Assembly (NCBI GenBank): GCA_012522185.1
Contig: JAAYKY010000056.1
Coordinates: 1 to 64,000 of the forward strand
Direction: 5' to 3'
Source of the DNA: Flavobacteriaceae bacterium
GTDB taxonomy: Bacteria > Bacteroidota > Bacteroidia > Flavobacteriales > Weeksellaceae
DNA length: 64,000 nt
The notes under the pieces are model-generated. The model searched no databases. It worked only from the letters and a program-made list of their open reading frames with translations, and was not told where the DNA came from. The position numbers and the translations under genes are program-made. Below, in pieces: positions 36,599 through 43,793 of this stretch (position 1 is its first letter; every line of letters starts with the position of its first letter).

Positions 36599-38017
36599 TT
36601 AGAATTGCCAACCGGCGGTCAGCAAAAACATTCCTATATTATTTTTCACTTCGGCTACATAATTATGATCCGCATTTAAGGGAAGCGTTGCCAAATAAAC
36701 ATCGCCATTATCATAATCTATGTATTCCCCATTCCCAAATACGTAATCAAATTTTTGGTTTTGTAACTGATAGGCCGCGTCCAGGTAGAAACCTCCGAAA
36801 TCGTATCCGGCACCTAAACTAAATCGATTGATATCGCCTCGAAAAGCCTTATCAAAATTAAGGTTTGCTACGTTTCCAGAGCCTGTGTCAGCCAATAATG
36901 TGATTTCATCAAATGGACTTTGCACATAATTATATCCTGCGCGAAAACGGAAATTATCCGCTCTAAATTCTCCTCCCAATCGAAATTCACTCGAGGATTT
37001 CAGATGATCATCCAAGAAGCTATTGGTCGAAGCAAAGCTTCCTGAAGGCATCATTTTAGTGGAGCCGTTCATGTGAAGGGTATAGTCCGCATTGAGCGCT
37101 AATGACTTACCCACTACCACTCCAGCACTTGCCACGAGACGACTGTTTGCGTTTCGATGGTATTCGGAATAATAAAAGTCATAGTGATAATTTTCTCCGA
37201 ATAATAAATCCGCATAGTAGTTTTCTTCAATATTTCTATACCAAACCGGGCTGTGGTACGCCAAACCTAATCGTAACTGATCTGTCAGTTTCCCAATTAC
37301 ACCAGCGCTCACAGAAATTCCAGTTCCGGCTGCACTATAAGGCGTTCCATTTAGGTCATAACGATAGGTGGTTGTCCCGGCAGATCCCGTAGTTTCTTCA
37401 TCAAACACGACATAATTATCGTATCGAACATCGTGGAAATTAACCCCCAATCCCAGATAAAGGTGGTCGTTGTAACTAGCACCAAAATCAAGTGACATTT
37501 TAGTTTTGTATCCGATTACTTCGTCTTGATAACCGTTCATTAAGTAAGTTGTATATTCTTCCGGATCCTCATTGGTCAAATAAGTTGCCTGAATATTTTC
37601 ATTCCTTCCTAAGCGCATCCAATTATCAAGAGACTCTTGGGAGTATTTAATTCCGATTGCAAATCGGTTCCACCCACTTGATGGATTATTGAAAACAAAT
37701 GTTCCGCCTATATTTTGAAACATCAAGGAATTATCATCGGTTTTGACGGTATTTCCAAACGTACTCTCATTTTTATAGGAATTGAATCCGAGTGTAACAT
37801 TCACATCAGAAGCAATGGCTACGGCTAATCCTGCCGGGTTTTGTTCTACGGATGAAATATCGCCCCCCAAGGCTCCCATGGATCCTCCCATCCCGATATA
37901 ACGGGCACTTCCTGCATTGATTTCATTTGAATAAGCTGGAATTGAATTTAAGTCCTGAACGGTTTGGGCATTTGCCAATCCCGTCAGGATTAGTAATCCT
38001 GCAAATATATTTTTCAT
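36599..38017 (-). CDS. FadL/OmpP1-type outer membrane transport protein
   Basis: 472 residues. Signal peptide ending GLANAQ, followed by the OmpP1/FadL amino region GSARYIGMGGSMGALGGDISSVEQNPAGLAV, which forms the plug hatch, then about 14 barrel strands, ending with the aromatic GWQF. Members transport long-chain fatty acids or other hydrophobic compounds; in this phylum they are often labelled hemin receptor, without proof. It begins 19 bases after the low-complexity lipoprotein gene upstream and is probably in one transcript with it. Confidence 0.87.
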   Translation of the reverse strand: MKNIFAGLLILTGLANAQTVQDLNSIPAYSNEINAGSARYIGMGGSMGALGGDISSVEQNPAGLAVAIASDVNVTLGFNSYKNESTFGNTVKTDDNSLMFQNIGGTFVFNNPSSGWNRFAIGIKYSQESLDNWMRLGRNENIQATYLTNEDPEEYTTYLMNGYQDEVIGYKTKMSLDFGASYNDHLYLGLGVNFHDVRYDNYVVFDEETTGSAGTTTYRYDLNGTPYSAAGTGISVSAGVIGKLTDQLRLGLAYHSPVWYRNIEENYYADLLFGENYHYDFYYSEYHRNANSRLVASAGVVVGKSLALNADYTLHMNGSTKMMPSGSFASTNSFLDDHLKSSSEFRLGGEFRADNFRFRAGYNYVQSPFDEITLLADTGSGNVANLNFDKAFRGDINRFSLGAGYDFGGFYLDAAYQLQNQKFDYVFGNGEYIDYDNGDVYLATLPLNADHNYVAEVKNNIGMFLLTAGWQF

Positions 38018-38036: not shown

Positions 38037-39245
38037 TTATCTTCTTGAACCTCCTCTCGTCCCGCTACTGCTTCCAGATCTCATTCCACTACTACTTGAC
38101 CCGCTCCTCATATTTGAACCCGAAGATCTCATACTTGGACTTGATGGTGTCGTTGTTCGCATATTTGAATTCTGCCTCATATTGCTATTAGAGCGGATAT
38201 TAGAGTTAGAGTTTTGACGGATATTTGAATTTTGTCGAATATTATTGTTCGAACGAATGTTATCATTGGTTCGAATGGGTGTATTCGGACGAACATTTGC
38301 TGGAGCTGTTTGACGTACTGGACGAACATTTGCGTCTTGAGTGACTCTTGTATTACTATCTCGTACTTGTGGTGATCTCAGATTTGCATCCGTGGTCGTA
38401 TTTCTCACACCGGTTTCTCTCACTTGACGTACTGGAGCTTCAGCTCTCAGGTTACTATTTGTTCTGACATTGCTATTTCTTACGGTAGCATTTCCAGTTC
38501 GGGTTTGTCTCACTGATGAATTTTCCATCAGGCGATTGCTACTATTATTTCGGAAAGGAGAATTATTTCGATACGGGGTTCCATAAGCCAATCCAGAGCC
38601 AGGTCTTACCCCTGCTCCAACTGCTGTCCCTCTGTGGTAATACCCTGGGTAACCATAGTGGCCATAATAACCTCCATAATAACCATAATATCCTCCATAG
38701 TAACCGCCCCAATAAGGACTATAATAGCCTCCCCAATAAGGACCATAATATCCCCATCCGGAGTACCATGGACTGTACCAGCCTCCCCAGCCCCATCTTG
38801 GATAGCCCCAGCCCCAAGACCATGAAGAATACCCAAATCCCCACCATGGATTGTGCCAGCCATAATTGTTTACTGTAATGTCTAAACCATCATATCTTCC
38901 CCAATCAGTAGTATTTCCTGATCCTACGTAAACATTATTACTTCCAGTGTAGATATTTACATCATTAGTTGTGGATTGAGCCGTTTGCTCATCGTAATAA
39001 AAATCCTCAGCTCCATTCCCTTCGGCATCGAAATAAGGACTTCCGACTTGAATATCATAAGGATTTGCTTCGGTTTGTCCTTGCACTATCTGCCCATCTC
39101 TCGAAGGACTGTAATAAATCCCATCCGTTTCACCGCTTTTGGCAGCAGTAGATTGGGAAGAAGAGCAAGAGGCCATTCCAAATACAATAGCCAAAACCCC
39201 AAAATATTTGAAGATTTTTTGTGAATATGTATAAACTTTACTCAT
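38037..39245 (-). CDS. Lipoprotein with Trp/Gly/Tyr block and Arg/Asn/Ser tail
   Basis: 402 residues. Signal peptide with lipobox FGMASC (Cys 27). Residues 40-125 are acidic and Asn-rich. Residues 128-203 are almost only W, G, Y, P and S (WGWGYPRWGWGGWYSPWYSG and repeated GGYYSPYWGGYY). From about 225 to the end the chain is Arg/Asn/Ser-rich with recurring units such as VRNSNVRTNSN, NIRQNS and MRSGSSS; calculated charge is strongly positive. No known domain is seen. It is unlikely to be globular over its last 270 residues and may be sticky or phase-separating; this is inference. Conserved neighbours proS and FadL-like flank it. Confidence 0.8.
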   Translation of the reverse strand: MSKVYTYSQKIFKYFGVLAIVFGMASCSSSQSTAAKSGETDGIYYSPSRDGQIVQGQTEANPYDIQVGSPYFDAEGNGAEDFYYDEQTAQSTTNDVNIYTGSNNVYVGSGNTTDWGRYDGLDITVNNYGWHNPWWGFGYSSWSWGWGYPRWGWGGWYSPWYSGWGYYGPYWGGYYSPYWGGYYGGYYGYYGGYYGHYGYPGYYHRGTAVGAGVRPGSGLAYGTPYRNNSPFRNNSSNRLMENSSVRQTRTGNATVRNSNVRTNSNLRAEAPVRQVRETGVRNTTTDANLRSPQVRDSNTRVTQDANVRPVRQTAPANVRPNTPIRTNDNIRSNNNIRQNSNIRQNSNSNIRSNSNMRQNSNMRTTTPSSPSMRSSGSNMRSGSSSSGMRSGSSSGTRGGSRR

Positions 39246-39386: not shown

Positions 39387-40865
39387 ATGGCAAAACTTAC
39401 TTCAAGAAGTGAAGATTATTCCAAGTGGTACAATGAGTTAGTGACACAAACCGGCATGGCCGAAAACTCAAAGGTGAGAGGATGCATGGTAATCAAACCC
39501 TATGGTTATGCCATTTGGGAAAAAATGCAAGCCGAATTGGACAGGATGTTCAAAGAAACCGGTCACCAGAACGCGTATTTCCCCATTTTTGTGCCGAAAA
39601 GTTTATTTGAAGCGGAAGAAAAAAACGCAGAAGGTTTTGCCAAAGAATGCGCTGTTGTTACTCATTATCGATTAAAAAATGATCCGAAGAATGAAGGAAA
39701 GCTAATGGTAGATCCAGAAGCAAAACTCGAAGAAGAGTTGATTGTTCGCCCTACTTCGGAAGCTATCATCTGGAGCACTTATAAAAACTGGATTCAGTCT
39801 TATCGTGATTTACCGATACTCATTAACCAATGGGCCAACGTCGTACGATGGGAAATGCGCACCCGATTGTTTCTTCGTACCGCTGAATTTTTATGGCAAG
39901 AAGGGCACACGGCTCACGCCACCAAAGAAGAAGCTTGGGAAGAAACACGAAAAATGTTGGATGTTTATGCAGAATTCGCAGAAAACTTCATGGGAATCCC
40001 AGTAGTCAAAGGCTATAAAACACCAAGTGAGCGTTTTGCTGGAGCCGAAGAAACCTTGTGCATTGAGGCGATGATGCAGGATGGGAAAGCGCTTCAAGCC
40101 GGAACCTCGCATTTCCTTGGACAGAATTTCGCCAAAGCTTTTGATGTGAAATTTGCCACCAAAGAAGGTTCACTCGAGCACGTTTGGGCAACTTCATGGG
40201 GTGTCTCCACCCGACTAATCGGCGCTTTAATCATGACGCATTCCGATGACAATGGTTTGGTTTTACCACCAAAACTAGCACCTATTCAAGTGGTGATTGT
40301 TCCAATTTATCGGAATGACGAACAAAGAGAAGCCATTTCTGAAGTTTCTTTGAATTTGGTGTCAGAGCTAAAAAACAAAGGCGTTTCGGTGAAATACGAT
40401 GACGACGATACGGTAAAACCTGGATGGAAATTTAATGAATATGAATTGAAAGGAGTTCCCATCCGTATTGCAATCGGACCGAGAGACCTCGAAAACGGTC
40501 AGGTAGAACTTGCCCGTCGCGACACCTTAGAGAAATCTCTTGAGAAACTCGATGGGATTTCAGAAACGATTGTACAAAAACTGGATGAAATCCAAGAAAA
40601 TATTTTCCAAAAAGCAAGAGAGTTCCGCGACGAACACATCACAGAGGTTTCTTCTTATGAGGAATTTAAAGAAGTTCTGGAGTCAAAGGGAGGCTTCATC
40701 TCAGCTTATTGGGACGGAACGGAGGAAACGGAAGAAAAAATTAAAAATGAAACCAAAGCTACAATCCGTTGTATTCCTTTCGCCGAAGCGGATTTAGAAG
40801 GAAAAAAGGATGTTTTTTCAGGACAAGAAGCGAAGTTCAAAGTTCTTTACGCCAAAGCATATTAA
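39387..40865 (+). CDS. proS: Prolyl-tRNA synthetase (type 3, archaeal/eukaryotic-like)
   Basis: 492 residues. A class II synthetase charging tRNA-Pro. Seen: motif 1 region [18 protein letters not shown], motif 2 [21 protein letters not shown], motif 3 region [18 protein letters not shown] and [18 protein letters not shown], then an anticodon-binding domain and a carboxy-terminal extension. The editing insertion found in long bacterial ProRS is absent, which marks the short type also common in Bacteroidota. It stands alone; the spacer upstream is 141 bases. Confidence 0.96.
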
Positions 40866-40940
40866 CTTTAACGAATTTTTACAAAACTTATAAGTCAGTT
40901 GGTTCAATTATTGATAATGAATTCAACTCAAAAATTTCGT

Positions 40941-41288
40941 ATGAAAAACATATTCACCTTCGTACTTCTGATTTCCCTTAGCGGAGTTTTATTTGGGCAA
41001 AACAACCCATCGGATAAACGAAACAATTTCGAAGAATGGAGTAAGGAATTAAACCTTACCGAAAGTCAAGAAAAAGAAATCCGATTGATCCAGGAGAAAT
41101 TCCAATTGGAGTCTGAGACTCTGAGACAATCGGGAGATTTAGAAAAAGCAAAATCTTTGCAAGAAAGACAGCAAATAGAAATCGATGCTGTTTTAACGTC
41201 TGAACAAATTAACAAAGCAAAATTAATCAAAGAAAGAAAAATAAGGGAAAATAAAAAAAAGGCTGCCTCCCAATCAGCAGTTAGATAA
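40941..41288 (+). CDS. Small exported Spy/CpxP-like helical protein
   Basis: 115 residues from the ATG at 40941, which starts the signal peptide MKNIFTFVLLISLSGVLFGQ; upstream in-frame starts would add a non-signal extension. The mature part is charged helix with LTESQEKEIRLIQEKF and LTSEQINKAKLIKERK, spaced like the LTxxQ motifs of Spy/CpxP periplasmic chaperones, though only the general pattern is kept. It ends in a lysine-rich tail. Function is inferred from pattern only. Confidence 0.7.
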   Translation: MKNIFTFVLLISLSGVLFGQNNPSDKRNNFEEWSKELNLTESQEKEIRLIQEKFQLESETLRQSGDLEKAKSLQERQQIEIDAVLTSEQINKAKLIKERKIRENKKKAASQSAVR

Positions 41289-41348: not shown

Positions 41349-43793
41349 ATGATGTCATTCAAAAAAATCCTTATCCCATTTGTACTATTATTTAGTATTA
41401 TTTCGTATTCTCAAAATTACACTTTGACCGGTAAAGTAACCGACTCTCAAGATCGCCCCTTAGAATACGCAACCATTTCGATTCAAGATCCTGCCACTTA
41501 CACAGAGCTCTCGGGAGGAATTACTGATGCAAACGGTAACTTTGCTGTAGAGGTCGAGGGCGGAAACCACATTTTATACATTGAATCTTTTATGGGTAGT
41601 ACTTATGAAAAATTAATTGACGTAACCCAAAATCAGAATTTAGGGACATTTAAATTGGAAGAAAATGCTGCAGTAGCCTTGGAAGGAGTAACAATCACTG
41701 GAAACAATCAAACCTATCGGATGGAGCTGGATAAAAAAGTATATAATTTATCCCAAGACATCATGGCGAAAGGAAGTTCTCTTTCTGATGCTTTGCAAAA
41801 TGTGCCTTCGGTTCAAGTCGATGGCGAAGGAAATGTAAGTTTGCGTGGAAATGAAAATGTTCGAATTCTAATCGATGGGAAACCCTCCTCTCTGGTGGGA
41901 ATTTCTGATCCGGCGACTGCTTTGCAAAGCTTACCAGCAGATGTTGTTGAGCGAATTGAAATTGTAACCAATCCATCGGCAAGGTACGAAGCAGAAGGAA
42001 CTGCTGGAATCATCAATATCATCCTAAAGAAAGGTAAACTACAAGGATTCAATGGCTCGATCAATGTGAATGGAGGAATTCCAACCTCTTATGGAGCTGC
42101 CGCAAATCTGAATTATAGAACTGGAAAATGGAATCTGTTTACCAATTTAAGCTACCGATATGCAGAAAGAGAAAGAGAAGGTAATTCCTATACGACAAGA
42201 TTTAATTCCGAAGGAATTCCACGTTATGAAGACATGGATCGGGAAGCAACACGTATCAATGACGGATACAATATCATGTTAGGAACTGAATATTATTTAG
42301 ACCCGAGAAACACCTTTACACTTTCTGGAAATTACCGATTTGGAAAGAATGAAAACCTTTCGGACATTTTCTACAATGATTATGACTCGAATTTAAATTT
42401 GACCAATAGTTCTTTGAGAACCGAAAGAGAAAAAGAAGACGATTTCAGTATCGAAGGAAATTTCAATTATAAACATGAATTTCTAGATCCAGGTCATGAA
42501 CTTTCAATTGATGCGCGCGTTACTTATTCCGAAGAACAAGAAGACGGAGATTTGCGTGAAATAGGAGATTTAGTGAATTCAACCGAAAGGTCTTTCAGTT
42601 CAGAGTTCCAAAATCGTGTGATTATTTCGGCTGATTATGTCTATCCTTTTGGAGAAAAAGGAAGATTAGAATTGGGTGCTCGTGGAGAAATGGAATCCAC
42701 GCTGACTGATTTCAAAGTGGATAGTTTAGGCAATAGCGGATGGCTTTCAAAGCCGGAATTTTCAAACCGCACGGATTATCGTCAGAACGTCTATGCAGCT
42801 TATGCACAATACGGACAAGGCTTTGGAAACTTCTCATTTTTCGCTGGACTTCGTATGGAGAATTCAGACATTACTGTTAAATCCATTTTGAATGAAAGCG
42901 TGACGCGTAAAAACTATGTGGATTTCTTCCCGAGTTTGTTTTTAAATTATGAGTTCTTGAACGAAGACCAATTGCAAGTAAGCTATAGCCGTAGAATCAG
43001 AAGACCAAGAGGATGGGACTTGATTCCTTTTACTTCTTATTCAAACAACCGAAATATGTTTATGGGTAATCCGGATTTAAATCCACAATACACTGATTCC
43101 TATGAGTTGTCTTATGTGGCCAAAATCGGGAAATTCATGGTTACGCCTAATATTTATTACTCCAATACTACGGATAATATTCAGAGATACCAATCCATCA
43201 ATGAGCTTGGTGTTTTGATCACAAGACCTATCAACGTAGGAACTGAAGAGCGATACGGTGGAGATTTGACTTTCACTTATCGACCTTGGAGATGGTGGAA
43301 TATCATGGGTAATGTGAATCTTTTTGGCTACCGCACAAAAGGCGAGTACACCGATTCCTATATCAACCCAACAACGGGTGCTGAAATCACTACCACCACC
43401 AACTTTGATGGGGACGGATTCAGCTGGTTCGGAAGATTGAACAATAGCTTCACTTTACCGGCAAATTTCTCAGCTCAGATTTCAGGTTTCTATCGAGGAG
43501 GAATGAAATCTGCACAAAGCGAGAGAAAGCCGATGTACGGTGTAGATTTGTCCATCAGCAAAGATCTGTTCAATGACAATGCGACCATCACTGCCAGCGT
43601 ACGAGATTTATTTAACACACGTGGTTTCGAAATGGAATCTTGGGGCGATGACTTTTATTTGGAAAGCTACAACCGTTGGGGCGTAAGATCTATAAATGTA
43701 ACTTTCACGTATCGGTTCAATCAATCCAAACGAGAACAAAGAAGAGAGCAACGTGAGCAAGAATTTGAAATGGAAGCCGGTGCCGAAATGTAA
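41349..43793 (+). CDS. TonB-dependent-receptor-like outer membrane protein
   Basis: 814 residues. Signal peptide ending IISYSQ, a carboxypeptidase-regulatory-like domain (about 24-110, YTLTGKVTDSQDRPLEYATISI), a plug domain (about 130-225, with LSDALQNVPSVQVDGEGNVSLRGNENVRILIDGKPS, shortened), and a 22-strand barrel of the outer-membrane beta-barrel family 3 kind. After the last strand VTFTYRFNQ comes a 20-residue charged tail (KREQRREQREQEFEMEAGAEM). No SusD partner is adjacent, so glycan import is not suggested; the ligand is unknown. Confidence 0.88.
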   Translation: MMSFKKILIPFVLLFSIISYSQNYTLTGKVTDSQDRPLEYATISIQDPATYTELSGGITDANGNFAVEVEGGNHILYIESFMGSTYEKLIDVTQNQNLGTFKLEENAAVALEGVTITGNNQTYRMELDKKVYNLSQDIMAKGSSLSDALQNVPSVQVDGEGNVSLRGNENVRILIDGKPSSLVGISDPATALQSLPADVVERIEIVTNPSARYEAEGTAGIINIILKKGKLQGFNGSINVNGGIPTSYGAAANLNYRTGKWNLFTNLSYRYAEREREGNSYTTRFNSEGIPRYEDMDREATRINDGYNIMLGTEYYLDPRNTFTLSGNYRFGKNENLSDIFYNDYDSNLNLTNSSLRTEREKEDDFSIEGNFNYKHEFLDPGHELSIDARVTYSEEQEDGDLREIGDLVNSTERSFSSEFQNRVIISADYVYPFGEKGRLELGARGEMESTLTDFKVDSLGNSGWLSKPEFSNRTDYRQNVYAAYAQYGQGFGNFSFFAGLRMENSDITVKSILNESVTRKNYVDFFPSLFLNYEFLNEDQLQVSYSRRIRRPRGWDLIPFTSYSNNRNMFMGNPDLNPQYTDSYELSYVAKIGKFMVTPNIYYSNTTDNIQRYQSINELGVLITRPINVGTEERYGGDLTFTYRPWRWWNIMGNVNLFGYRTKGEYTDSYINPTTGAEITTTTNFDGDGFSWFGRLNNSFTLPANFSAQISGFYRGGMKSAQSERKPMYGVDLSISKDLFNDNATITASVRDLFNTRGFEMESWGDDFYLESYNRWGVRSINVTFTYRFNQSKREQRREQREQEFEMEAGAEM

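Follow-up and report, generated by a model that had tools for sequence, protein, structure and literature searches.

What would a protein built largely of aromatic residues, glycine and arginine do outside the cytoplasm? The question is raised by a lipoprotein gene in a stretch of 64,000 nucleotides from a Flavobacteriaceae bacterium (contig JAAYKY010000056.1, positions 1 to 64,000, G+C 38.7%; hereafter the window). A preliminary description of this stretch had singled out the protein because aromatic and arginine-rich blocks within one disordered chain are the pattern known from phase-separating proteins, here on a lipoprotein exported from the cytoplasm. Here, we investigated its composition, its genomic partner and its relatives across the Bacteroidota. 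Our analyses suggest that, more than a single oddity, the lipoprotein is probably one of the two partners in an ancient and uncharacterised module, because the same layout is encoded upstream of a FadL-type barrel in many branches of this phylum.

Architecture and composition of the lipoprotein

The gene (38037..39245 including the stop codon, minus strand, as are all parts of it listed below) is an open frame that starts with ATG and encodes 402 aa. Residues 1–27 (39165..39245) constitute a predicted type II signal peptide with the lipobox MASC, ending in the lipid-carrying Cys27, which is invariant in all 17 rows of our alignment A2; by these features, the protein is a predicted substrate of signal peptidase II. 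The mature chain, which contains 34 Tyr, 14 Trp, 35 Arg and a single Lys, falls into three charge blocks. The first is an acidic N-terminal segment (residues 28–127, 38865..39164; net −12 and pI 4.1 by charge count) with two conserved short motifs: ETDGIYYSP (residues 39–47, 39105..39131), which holds the head motif D[DGN][VILM]Y used in our motif counts, and DWGRYDG (residues 114–120, 38886..38906), which lies just N-terminal of the aromatic block and in which G116 is invariant and D114, W115 and G120 are at least 90% conserved across the 17 rows of A2. It is followed by the aromatic block (residues 128–203, 38637..38864; net +1) and by an Arg tail with [VILM]R units (residues 204–402, 38040..38636; net +25, pI 12), which ends in RR.

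The composition first reported for the aromatic block was confirmed, W, G, Y, P and S accounting for 93% of residues 128–203 (Y 30%, G 30%, W 17%). For residues 225–402, the enrichment in R, N, S and T was also found (62%), although to say that the segment consists of these residues is a little strong; it contains 30 Arg, no Lys and 7 Asp/Glu. The repeated NxR units noticed in this tail are indeed in excess (13 versus 5.4 expected from shuffles of the tail, p 0.0002), but [VILM]R is the sharper unit, as it holds 22 of the 30 tail Arg compared with 4.2 expected, a number reached in none of 5000 shuffles. Such blocks are unique to the lipoprotein among the 57 window ORFs of at least 100 aa, the next-best values being 0.45 W/G/Y/P/S over 76 residues (0.93 in the lipoprotein) and 0.37 R/N/S/T over 150 residues (0.62 in the lipoprotein). 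Similarly, K/(K+R) is 0.10 in the lipoprotein precursor, compared with a median of 0.65 for the 33 window ORFs of at least 250 aa, the lipoprotein included.

AlphaFold2, run on a two-row alignment, returned no fold and a mean pLDDT of 30 throughout, and on this model the lipoprotein is very likely to be disordered. The model also supports the earlier reading of the chain as sticker-type, since the aromatic and Arg stickers would lie within an apparently disordered polypeptide, as expected of a sticker–spacer protein. Searches of Pfam and NCBIfam returned no low-complexity or other named family for the lipoprotein, on which ground its identity with a known low-complexity family was rejected, and a Pfam scan of 17 members of the lipoprotein family gave no convincing family either.

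The FadL-type barrel and the distribution of the pair

The probable partner of the lipoprotein is encoded 19 bp downstream by the gene for a 472-aa outer-membrane barrel of the FadL superfamily (36599..38017, minus strand). A terminator scan found no terminator-like site between the two genes, which, together with the short gap, makes one lipoprotein–barrel transcript likely. Thus, of the previous claim that the lipoprotein lies in one transcript with a FadL-type porin, the link to a FadL-type barrel stands, and the co-transcription is likely, the two genes being closely spaced on the same strand. A promoter scan gave 17 sigma-70-like sites, compared with 8.3 in shuffles. In the window, the pair is flanked by the unrelated genes guaB (named from sequence alone) and proS (39387..40865, plus strand), the latter being a divergent neighbour that lies outside the module and serves as a positional landmark. 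Downstream of proS follow a gene whose small product matches LTXXQ weakly (40899–41288; E 0.013, below the cut-off) and a gene for an OMP_b-brl_3-type TonB-dependent receptor (41349–43793), and genes for both kinds of protein are also present at the Moheibacter lacus locus (L021).

We assign the barrel to the FadL superfamily on the basis of its profile relationship to solved channels. When compared with the PDB, our barrel profile A1 found TbuX (E 3.3e-7) and the Pseudomonas FadL homologue 3dwo (E 3.5e-4), and nothing else, BamG included, at E up to 10. PF03349 scored 23 bits on the window barrel in a search of its own genome (cut-off 29.7), matched three of the nine rows of A1 and passed the cut-off on the Flavobacterium johnsoniae counterpart (50.4 bits); hmmscan, at E values of 1 or below, assigned the window barrel to no family. 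An AlphaFold2 model of the barrel, built on a shallow alignment of three rows, is of low confidence (pLDDT 45.8, pTM 0.51). When this model was compared with solved structures in view of the 14-stranded barrel of the superfamily, FadL-family chains headed both the Foldseek list, where TM scores were low (0.37 for the first), and the VIA list, with a Z of 16.2 for FadL, 15.3 for BamG and also 15.3 for an unrelated barrel.

Across 28 diverse barrel rows, the NPA motif of the N-terminal hatch has an invariant N60 and P61 (28/28) and an A62 that is at least 90% conserved, and the same invariance (28/28) is seen for Q18, which coincides with the predicted start of the mature chain or lies close to it. 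According to a simple cleavage-site pattern, the predicted mature N-terminus before NPA comprises 42 residues in the window barrel and 38–46 in 25 of the 28 rows, the remaining three being one mis-set start and two rows without a length. The N-terminus of E. coli FadL is shorter (N33, from PDB titles), and about 42 and 45 residues precede NPA in BamG (counted by hand). Nevertheless, identity of the window barrel with BamG was rejected, because neither the window barrel itself nor A1 finds BamG and because the BamG of this genome is a separate gene (L095, 1282–2577; phmmer E 3.7e-48 to 9n2d). This gene adjoins a 193-residue ORF (L095, 689–1270), which may, we presume, be LptC. Assignment to PorV/T9SS was likewise dismissed, the window barrel scoring no more than 17–18 bits with NCBIfam PorVQ2 (cut-off 325), a cut-off that a separate gene of the same genome passes with 438.9 bits. 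At one other locus (L052), the barrel match contains an internal TAG.

A search with the lipoprotein sequence found relatives (E ≤0.001) in 21 of the 59 sampled genomes, its own included. We compiled 22 lipoprotein loci (20 from the genome search, with the window's own among them, and two added; one gene is present twice), and these contain the barrel in 20 cases and proS in 19, the two loci without a barrel being L008, which ends at a contig edge, and L015. Profile A1, in turn, matched in 174 of 296 genomes sampled across the Bacteroidota, from which we took 70 barrel loci, 30 as best matches and 40 picked for family diversity. Under a composition rule that asks for an aromatic window followed by an Arg-bearing tail, exactly one ORF qualified in 65 of these 70 loci, the window (L023) among them, always upstream of the barrel and on the same strand; because the loci were picked as best matches and for diversity, this is not a random-sample rate. 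The exceptions are two near misses (L053, L062) and three loci with no such ORF (L084, L087, L092). Over 101 loci, the rule was met by 87 of 806 ORFs, one per locus, and no ORF met it within ~1.5 kb on each side of the five other FadL-superfamily genes of the window genome (L093, L095, L097, L098, L099). At most loci, then, the gene for one particular FadL-family barrel is preceded by one for a predicted chain that combines acidic head, aromatic block and Arg tail, and, to judge from gene content and order, there is little doubt that the two are a functional pair.

In the outlying classes, six loci have one extra ORF of at least 100 aa between lipoprotein and barrel (L065 3631–4179, L068 5385–6146, L070 5868–6497, L077 4885–5493, L080 4991–5341 and L086 4542–5102). 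Those of L068, L070 and L077 are themselves lipoprotein-like; above-cut-off matches were found neither to Pfam for L065, L068, L070 and L086 nor to NCBIfam for L065, L077, L080 and L086. Further neighbours were scanned at 12 flanking and 13 upstream loci, chosen by length and position from the 29 loci L064–L092. Five of the 12 flanking genes encode a penicillin-amidase-type acylase (PF01804) beside the barrel and on its strand (L066 5671–8091, L067 1257–3461, L064 5887–8115, L073 1463–3697, L083 1930–4320), which makes a fatty-acid or acyl-amide link possible; the other seven are TPR, sortilin-like, GHL10, HD (an HD-domain protein beside L078), TonB receptor and, twice, RsgA genes. Upstream of the lipoprotein, five of the 13 scanned genes have weak similarity to YjbH (PF06082), one of them above the Pfam cut-off. 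The acylase and YjbH neighbours hint at envelope lipid or polysaccharide, and neither is general.

In 122 of the 296 genomes, A1 found no match, and the proS loci of 20 of these genomes contained neither a barrel match nor a convincing pair, so that the module seems to be missing, or too diverged to be found, in part of the phylum. A loose aromatic rule retrieved only two ORFs at these 20 loci, one at L118 that runs antisense to proS and a 123-aa ORF at L123, and both were rejected as hidden lipoproteins, since neither resembles the family. Eight listed genomes of family f31 (G068, G072, G077, G080, G083, G087, G091, G095) have no barrel match and no convincing pair beside proS, suggesting loss of the module or its strong divergence there.

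The pair also has a counterpart in a model species. One of our genomes (G481) is that of F. johnsoniae, as its BamG is a 100% match to the F. johnsoniae BamG chain in the PDB. It contains a single match to the barrel profile, at 5.968 Mb, which is also the only one of four PF03349 matches to pass the cut-off. Immediately before it is encoded a lipoprotein of 345 residues that has the three blocks of the window protein and a terminal RR. We infer that this pair is Fjoh_4940/Fjoh_4941. In a study of TamL depletion, the FadL homologue Fjoh_4941 rose 5.6-fold and the neighbouring lipoprotein Fjoh_4940 2.6-fold, and a functional link between them was suggested by the authors (PMC12045153). This response is not specific, an increase being reported for 31 of 47 outer-membrane lipoproteins, and Fjoh_4941 was lower (0.4-fold) in vesicles of the TamL-depleted cells (PMC12045153). 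A literature search on five neighbouring Fjoh tags returned no paper besides this one, and none was found for the annotation name 'vitellogenin II' in combination with Flavobacterium.

Conservation of composition and of sequence

The nearest named relative that we found belongs to M. lacus (Flavobacteriales; 59% in the best segment), and 16 relatives are 29–67% identical to the window lipoprotein, the fixed points being the lipid-carrying Cys, both head motifs and Arg close to the C-terminus. In the M. lacus gene (L021, 5001–6242), the aromatic block contains tandem GWGGGWYGYNPYWGNPYY-type units and the tail a run of RSNSNM units, which suggests a rapid change of repeat number in this genus. 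Of the members of the order, 48/48 carry the head motif D[DGN][VILM]Y, as do 11/12 from the rest of the class (59/60 for the class as a whole), compared with 1 of 656 control ORFs; it is found in none of the 26 members of other classes. Kinship inside the class can therefore be argued from motif, layout and position, and outside it from position, layout and a CYT lipobox, which 23 of the 26 members share.

For the family as a whole, we kept 86 sequences, the window included, leaving out L084 (unrelated, a carboxylase by its look) and L087 (no aromatic block); L092 offered no candidate lipoprotein. Duplicate entries are L001, L023 and L100, all equal to the window, L094, which is the window barrel locus in shortened form, and L002, which is the L021 gene. 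The aromatic block is present in all 86 (median W/Y/G/F/P/S/H 72%), and the tail is net-positive in 85, the exception being the truncated reading L038 (464–1458), where the lipoprotein is split into two overlapping frames by a frameshift or a sequence error. Together, the tails contain 2240 Arg and 174 Lys, with at least three Arg per Lys in 77 of the 86, the most Lys-rich being those of L065, L080, L071 and L086. Their length ranges from 93 to 346 residues (L038 left out), and R is the C-terminal residue in 35 of the 48 members of the order. The expectation that orthologues would share composition more than sequence was thus borne out, and neither the sequences read nor the composition counts revealed an orthologue in which a folded domain replaces the blocks, a finding that would have spoken against the proposed pattern.

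Selection appears to act on all three parts of the protein, with unequal force. Between the window gene and L021, dN is 0.15 for the head (residues 1–127), which is thus the best conserved part in this comparison, 0.28 for the block and 0.45 for the tail, while dS is about 2 or lies beyond saturation; between L003 and L004, the corresponding dN values are 0.17, 0.10 and 0.41. The tail has a dN/dS of about 0.2, with dS near saturation. That dN is well below dS in each part and in both species pairs argues for purifying selection, loosest in the tail.

Side of the membrane and possible function

Which partners are open to such a chain depends on the side of the membrane that it faces. A lipobox pattern occurs in 82 of the 86 kept sequences, with the caveats that for L059 and L076 the wrong Cys was probably chosen and that L014 is cut by a contig end. 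Lipidation is not universal, as the lipobox is missing from L022, L056 and L057 and the signal of L059 resembles type I too. In the Bacteroidota, acids directly after the Cys mark surface lipoproteins (PMC12578637), the export signal being a stretch of acids at positions +2 to +6 (PMC5080379); this rule was set in Capnocytophaga, Bacteroides and Flavobacterium, and the window genus and the outlying classes lie outside that range. The six residues after Cys27 of the window lipoprotein are SSSQST, so it carries no acid there and lacks the predicted signal of a surface-exposed lipoprotein. Among the 82 lipobox-bearing members, 75 have no acid in these six positions, seven have one and none has two. 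As a weak baseline from the same loci, these two acids were found in 2 of 17 other lipobox ORFs, versus 0 of 66 members; three of the 17 are relatives that miss the composition rule (L038, L053, L062). In view of the export signal missing from all 82, the lipoprotein probably faces the periplasm.

On that side, the natural partners of the tail would be peptidoglycan, lipid A and the phosphates of phospholipids. We tentatively propose that the two genes form an envelope-homeostasis module, in which the lipoprotein would be docked on the barrel and grip an anionic envelope polymer, a reading in which our confidence stays short of even. Barrel and lipoprotein would form one unit, with the conserved head motifs (ETDG[VI]YY, DWGxYxG) docking on the barrel and the aromatic block self-associating and/or lying against barrel and membrane. 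The long Arg tail would grip the polymer, be it peptidoglycan, lipid A or phospholipid head groups, and the complex might then act as a flexible multivalent patch, tether or local condensate beneath the outer membrane. Such a module would help to keep the outer membrane intact, and cells would produce more of it whenever the assembly of this membrane is disturbed. The roles given here to tail and block in particular should be regarded as possible, with somewhat more doubt than trust.

The leading rival explanation assigns the pair to the handling of lipids or hydrophobic compounds, the barrel moving fatty acids or phospholipid and the lipoprotein acting as a periplasmic accessory that presents cargo, for which the MlaA–OmpC pair would be a functional counterpart. 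It would fit the FadL superfamily of the barrel, the PF01804 acylase beside it in five of the 12 scanned outlying-class loci and the rise of both Fjoh_4940 and Fjoh_4941 on TamL depletion (PMC12045153). However, a chain of such low complexity offers no evident pocket for a lipid, the role needs no Arg tail and the window neighbours guaB and proS are unrelated to it, and we regard this explanation as rather unlikely. A sticky layer exposed at the surface, with affinity for polysaccharide or for surfaces, as put forward in the preliminary description, would agree with the W/Y/G and Arg composition and with the weak YjbH (PF06082, exopolysaccharide) similarity upstream of the lipoprotein at five of 13 outlying loci, one over the cut-off. 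It is disfavoured, and in our estimate improbable, because the export signal is absent from every lipobox-bearing member. The nucleic-acid binding suggested at the same time, which would make the protein a binder of extracellular or incoming DNA, draws no support beyond the basic charge of the Arg-rich tail (pI 12); there is no DNA-uptake gene among the scanned neighbours and the paired gene is a FadL-type barrel, so we consider this role very improbable.

The pair might also work as an RcsF-like envelope-stress sensor or lumen-threading subunit, with the basic disordered segment in or beside the barrel reporting LPS or barrel-assembly damage. RcsF itself threads through a barrel, contains a folded domain and acts in the Rcs pathway. 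A disordered basic lipoprotein encoded with one barrel would suit such a sensor, as would the increased abundance on TamL depletion in F. johnsoniae (PMC12045153) and the precedent that RcsF works with outer-membrane proteins (PMC9907809). Still, we think this unlikely, because no signalling gene occurs among the scanned neighbours except the HD-domain protein beside L078, because FadL-type barrels have an N-terminal tail of their own through the pore (PMC12611786) and because the length of the lipoprotein tail varies from 93 to 346 residues. Finally, the variation in repeat length and tail sequence might be taken to mean that the chain is drifting, functionless low-complexity sequence that persists because it is linked to proS and the barrel. 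This we hold to be the least probable explanation, since dN is well below dS throughout, Lys is excluded from the tails, the head motif is kept, most members of the order (35/48) end in R and the pair persists at loci without proS in the stretch examined.

Returning to the docked, polymer-gripping pair that we prefer, a barrel with a dedicated lipoprotein is of a known kind. BamG–BamH and BamG2–BamH2 each combine a FadL-family barrel with a lipoprotein partner (PMC12611786, PMC12578637), and BamG shares with the window barrel a mature N-terminus longer than that of E. coli FadL, its extended tail passing through the lateral opening (PMC12611786). However, BamH is described in these sources as folded and surface-exposed, whereas the window lipoprotein is of low complexity and carries no export signal. 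With FadL, TodX and TbuX, the window barrel shares the superfamily and the NPA motif, together with a barrel fold predicted at low confidence, but it differs in being encoded with an Arg-tailed protein and in having a longer N-terminus with an invariant Gln (Q18). In contrast to RcsF, no folded domain and no Rcs pathway were seen for the window lipoprotein, although both are outer-membrane lipoproteins that work, or would work, with barrels (PMC9907809). CsgF offers a precedent for Phe-dependent phase separation of an outer-membrane protein, at the site of curli secretion, but is described as a surface-localised curli factor (PMC10133297), and no curli gene is among the scanned neighbours. The closest precedent is Fjoh_4940/Fjoh_4941, by inference the same pair, noticed earlier in that one species; the composition of the lipoprotein and the wider conservation of the pair are absent from the accessible part of that account (PMC12045153). 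Beyond these two locus tags, Pfam, NCBIfam and the literature gave no named family and no description of the lipoprotein, and a low-complexity, nearly Lys-free, probably periplasm-facing partner that is conserved by composition is a variant for which our literature search found no description.

Barrel–lipoprotein pairs such as BamG–BamH and SusC–SusD are central to the outer membrane of the Bacteroidota, and the window-type pair is found in Flavobacteriales as well as in classes beyond their own. In its boldest form, which we consider rather unlikely, our proposal would be that of a conserved periplasmic 'sticker' layer beneath the outer membrane, each copy of the dedicated barrel carrying a lipid-anchored, disordered lipoprotein whose aromatic block and almost Lys-free Arg tail would condense at the periplasmic face and couple the membrane to an anionic polymer. 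If true, this layer would be a periplasmic condensate or tether kept phylum-wide by composition and not by sequence, and it may stand in for the outer-membrane tethering or lipid-asymmetry systems of Proteobacteria. Moreover, the presence of Arg with hardly any Lys beside a W/Y/G block in an exported protein offers a clean natural case of conserved composition, and F. johnsoniae makes this Arg-composition trait directly testable.
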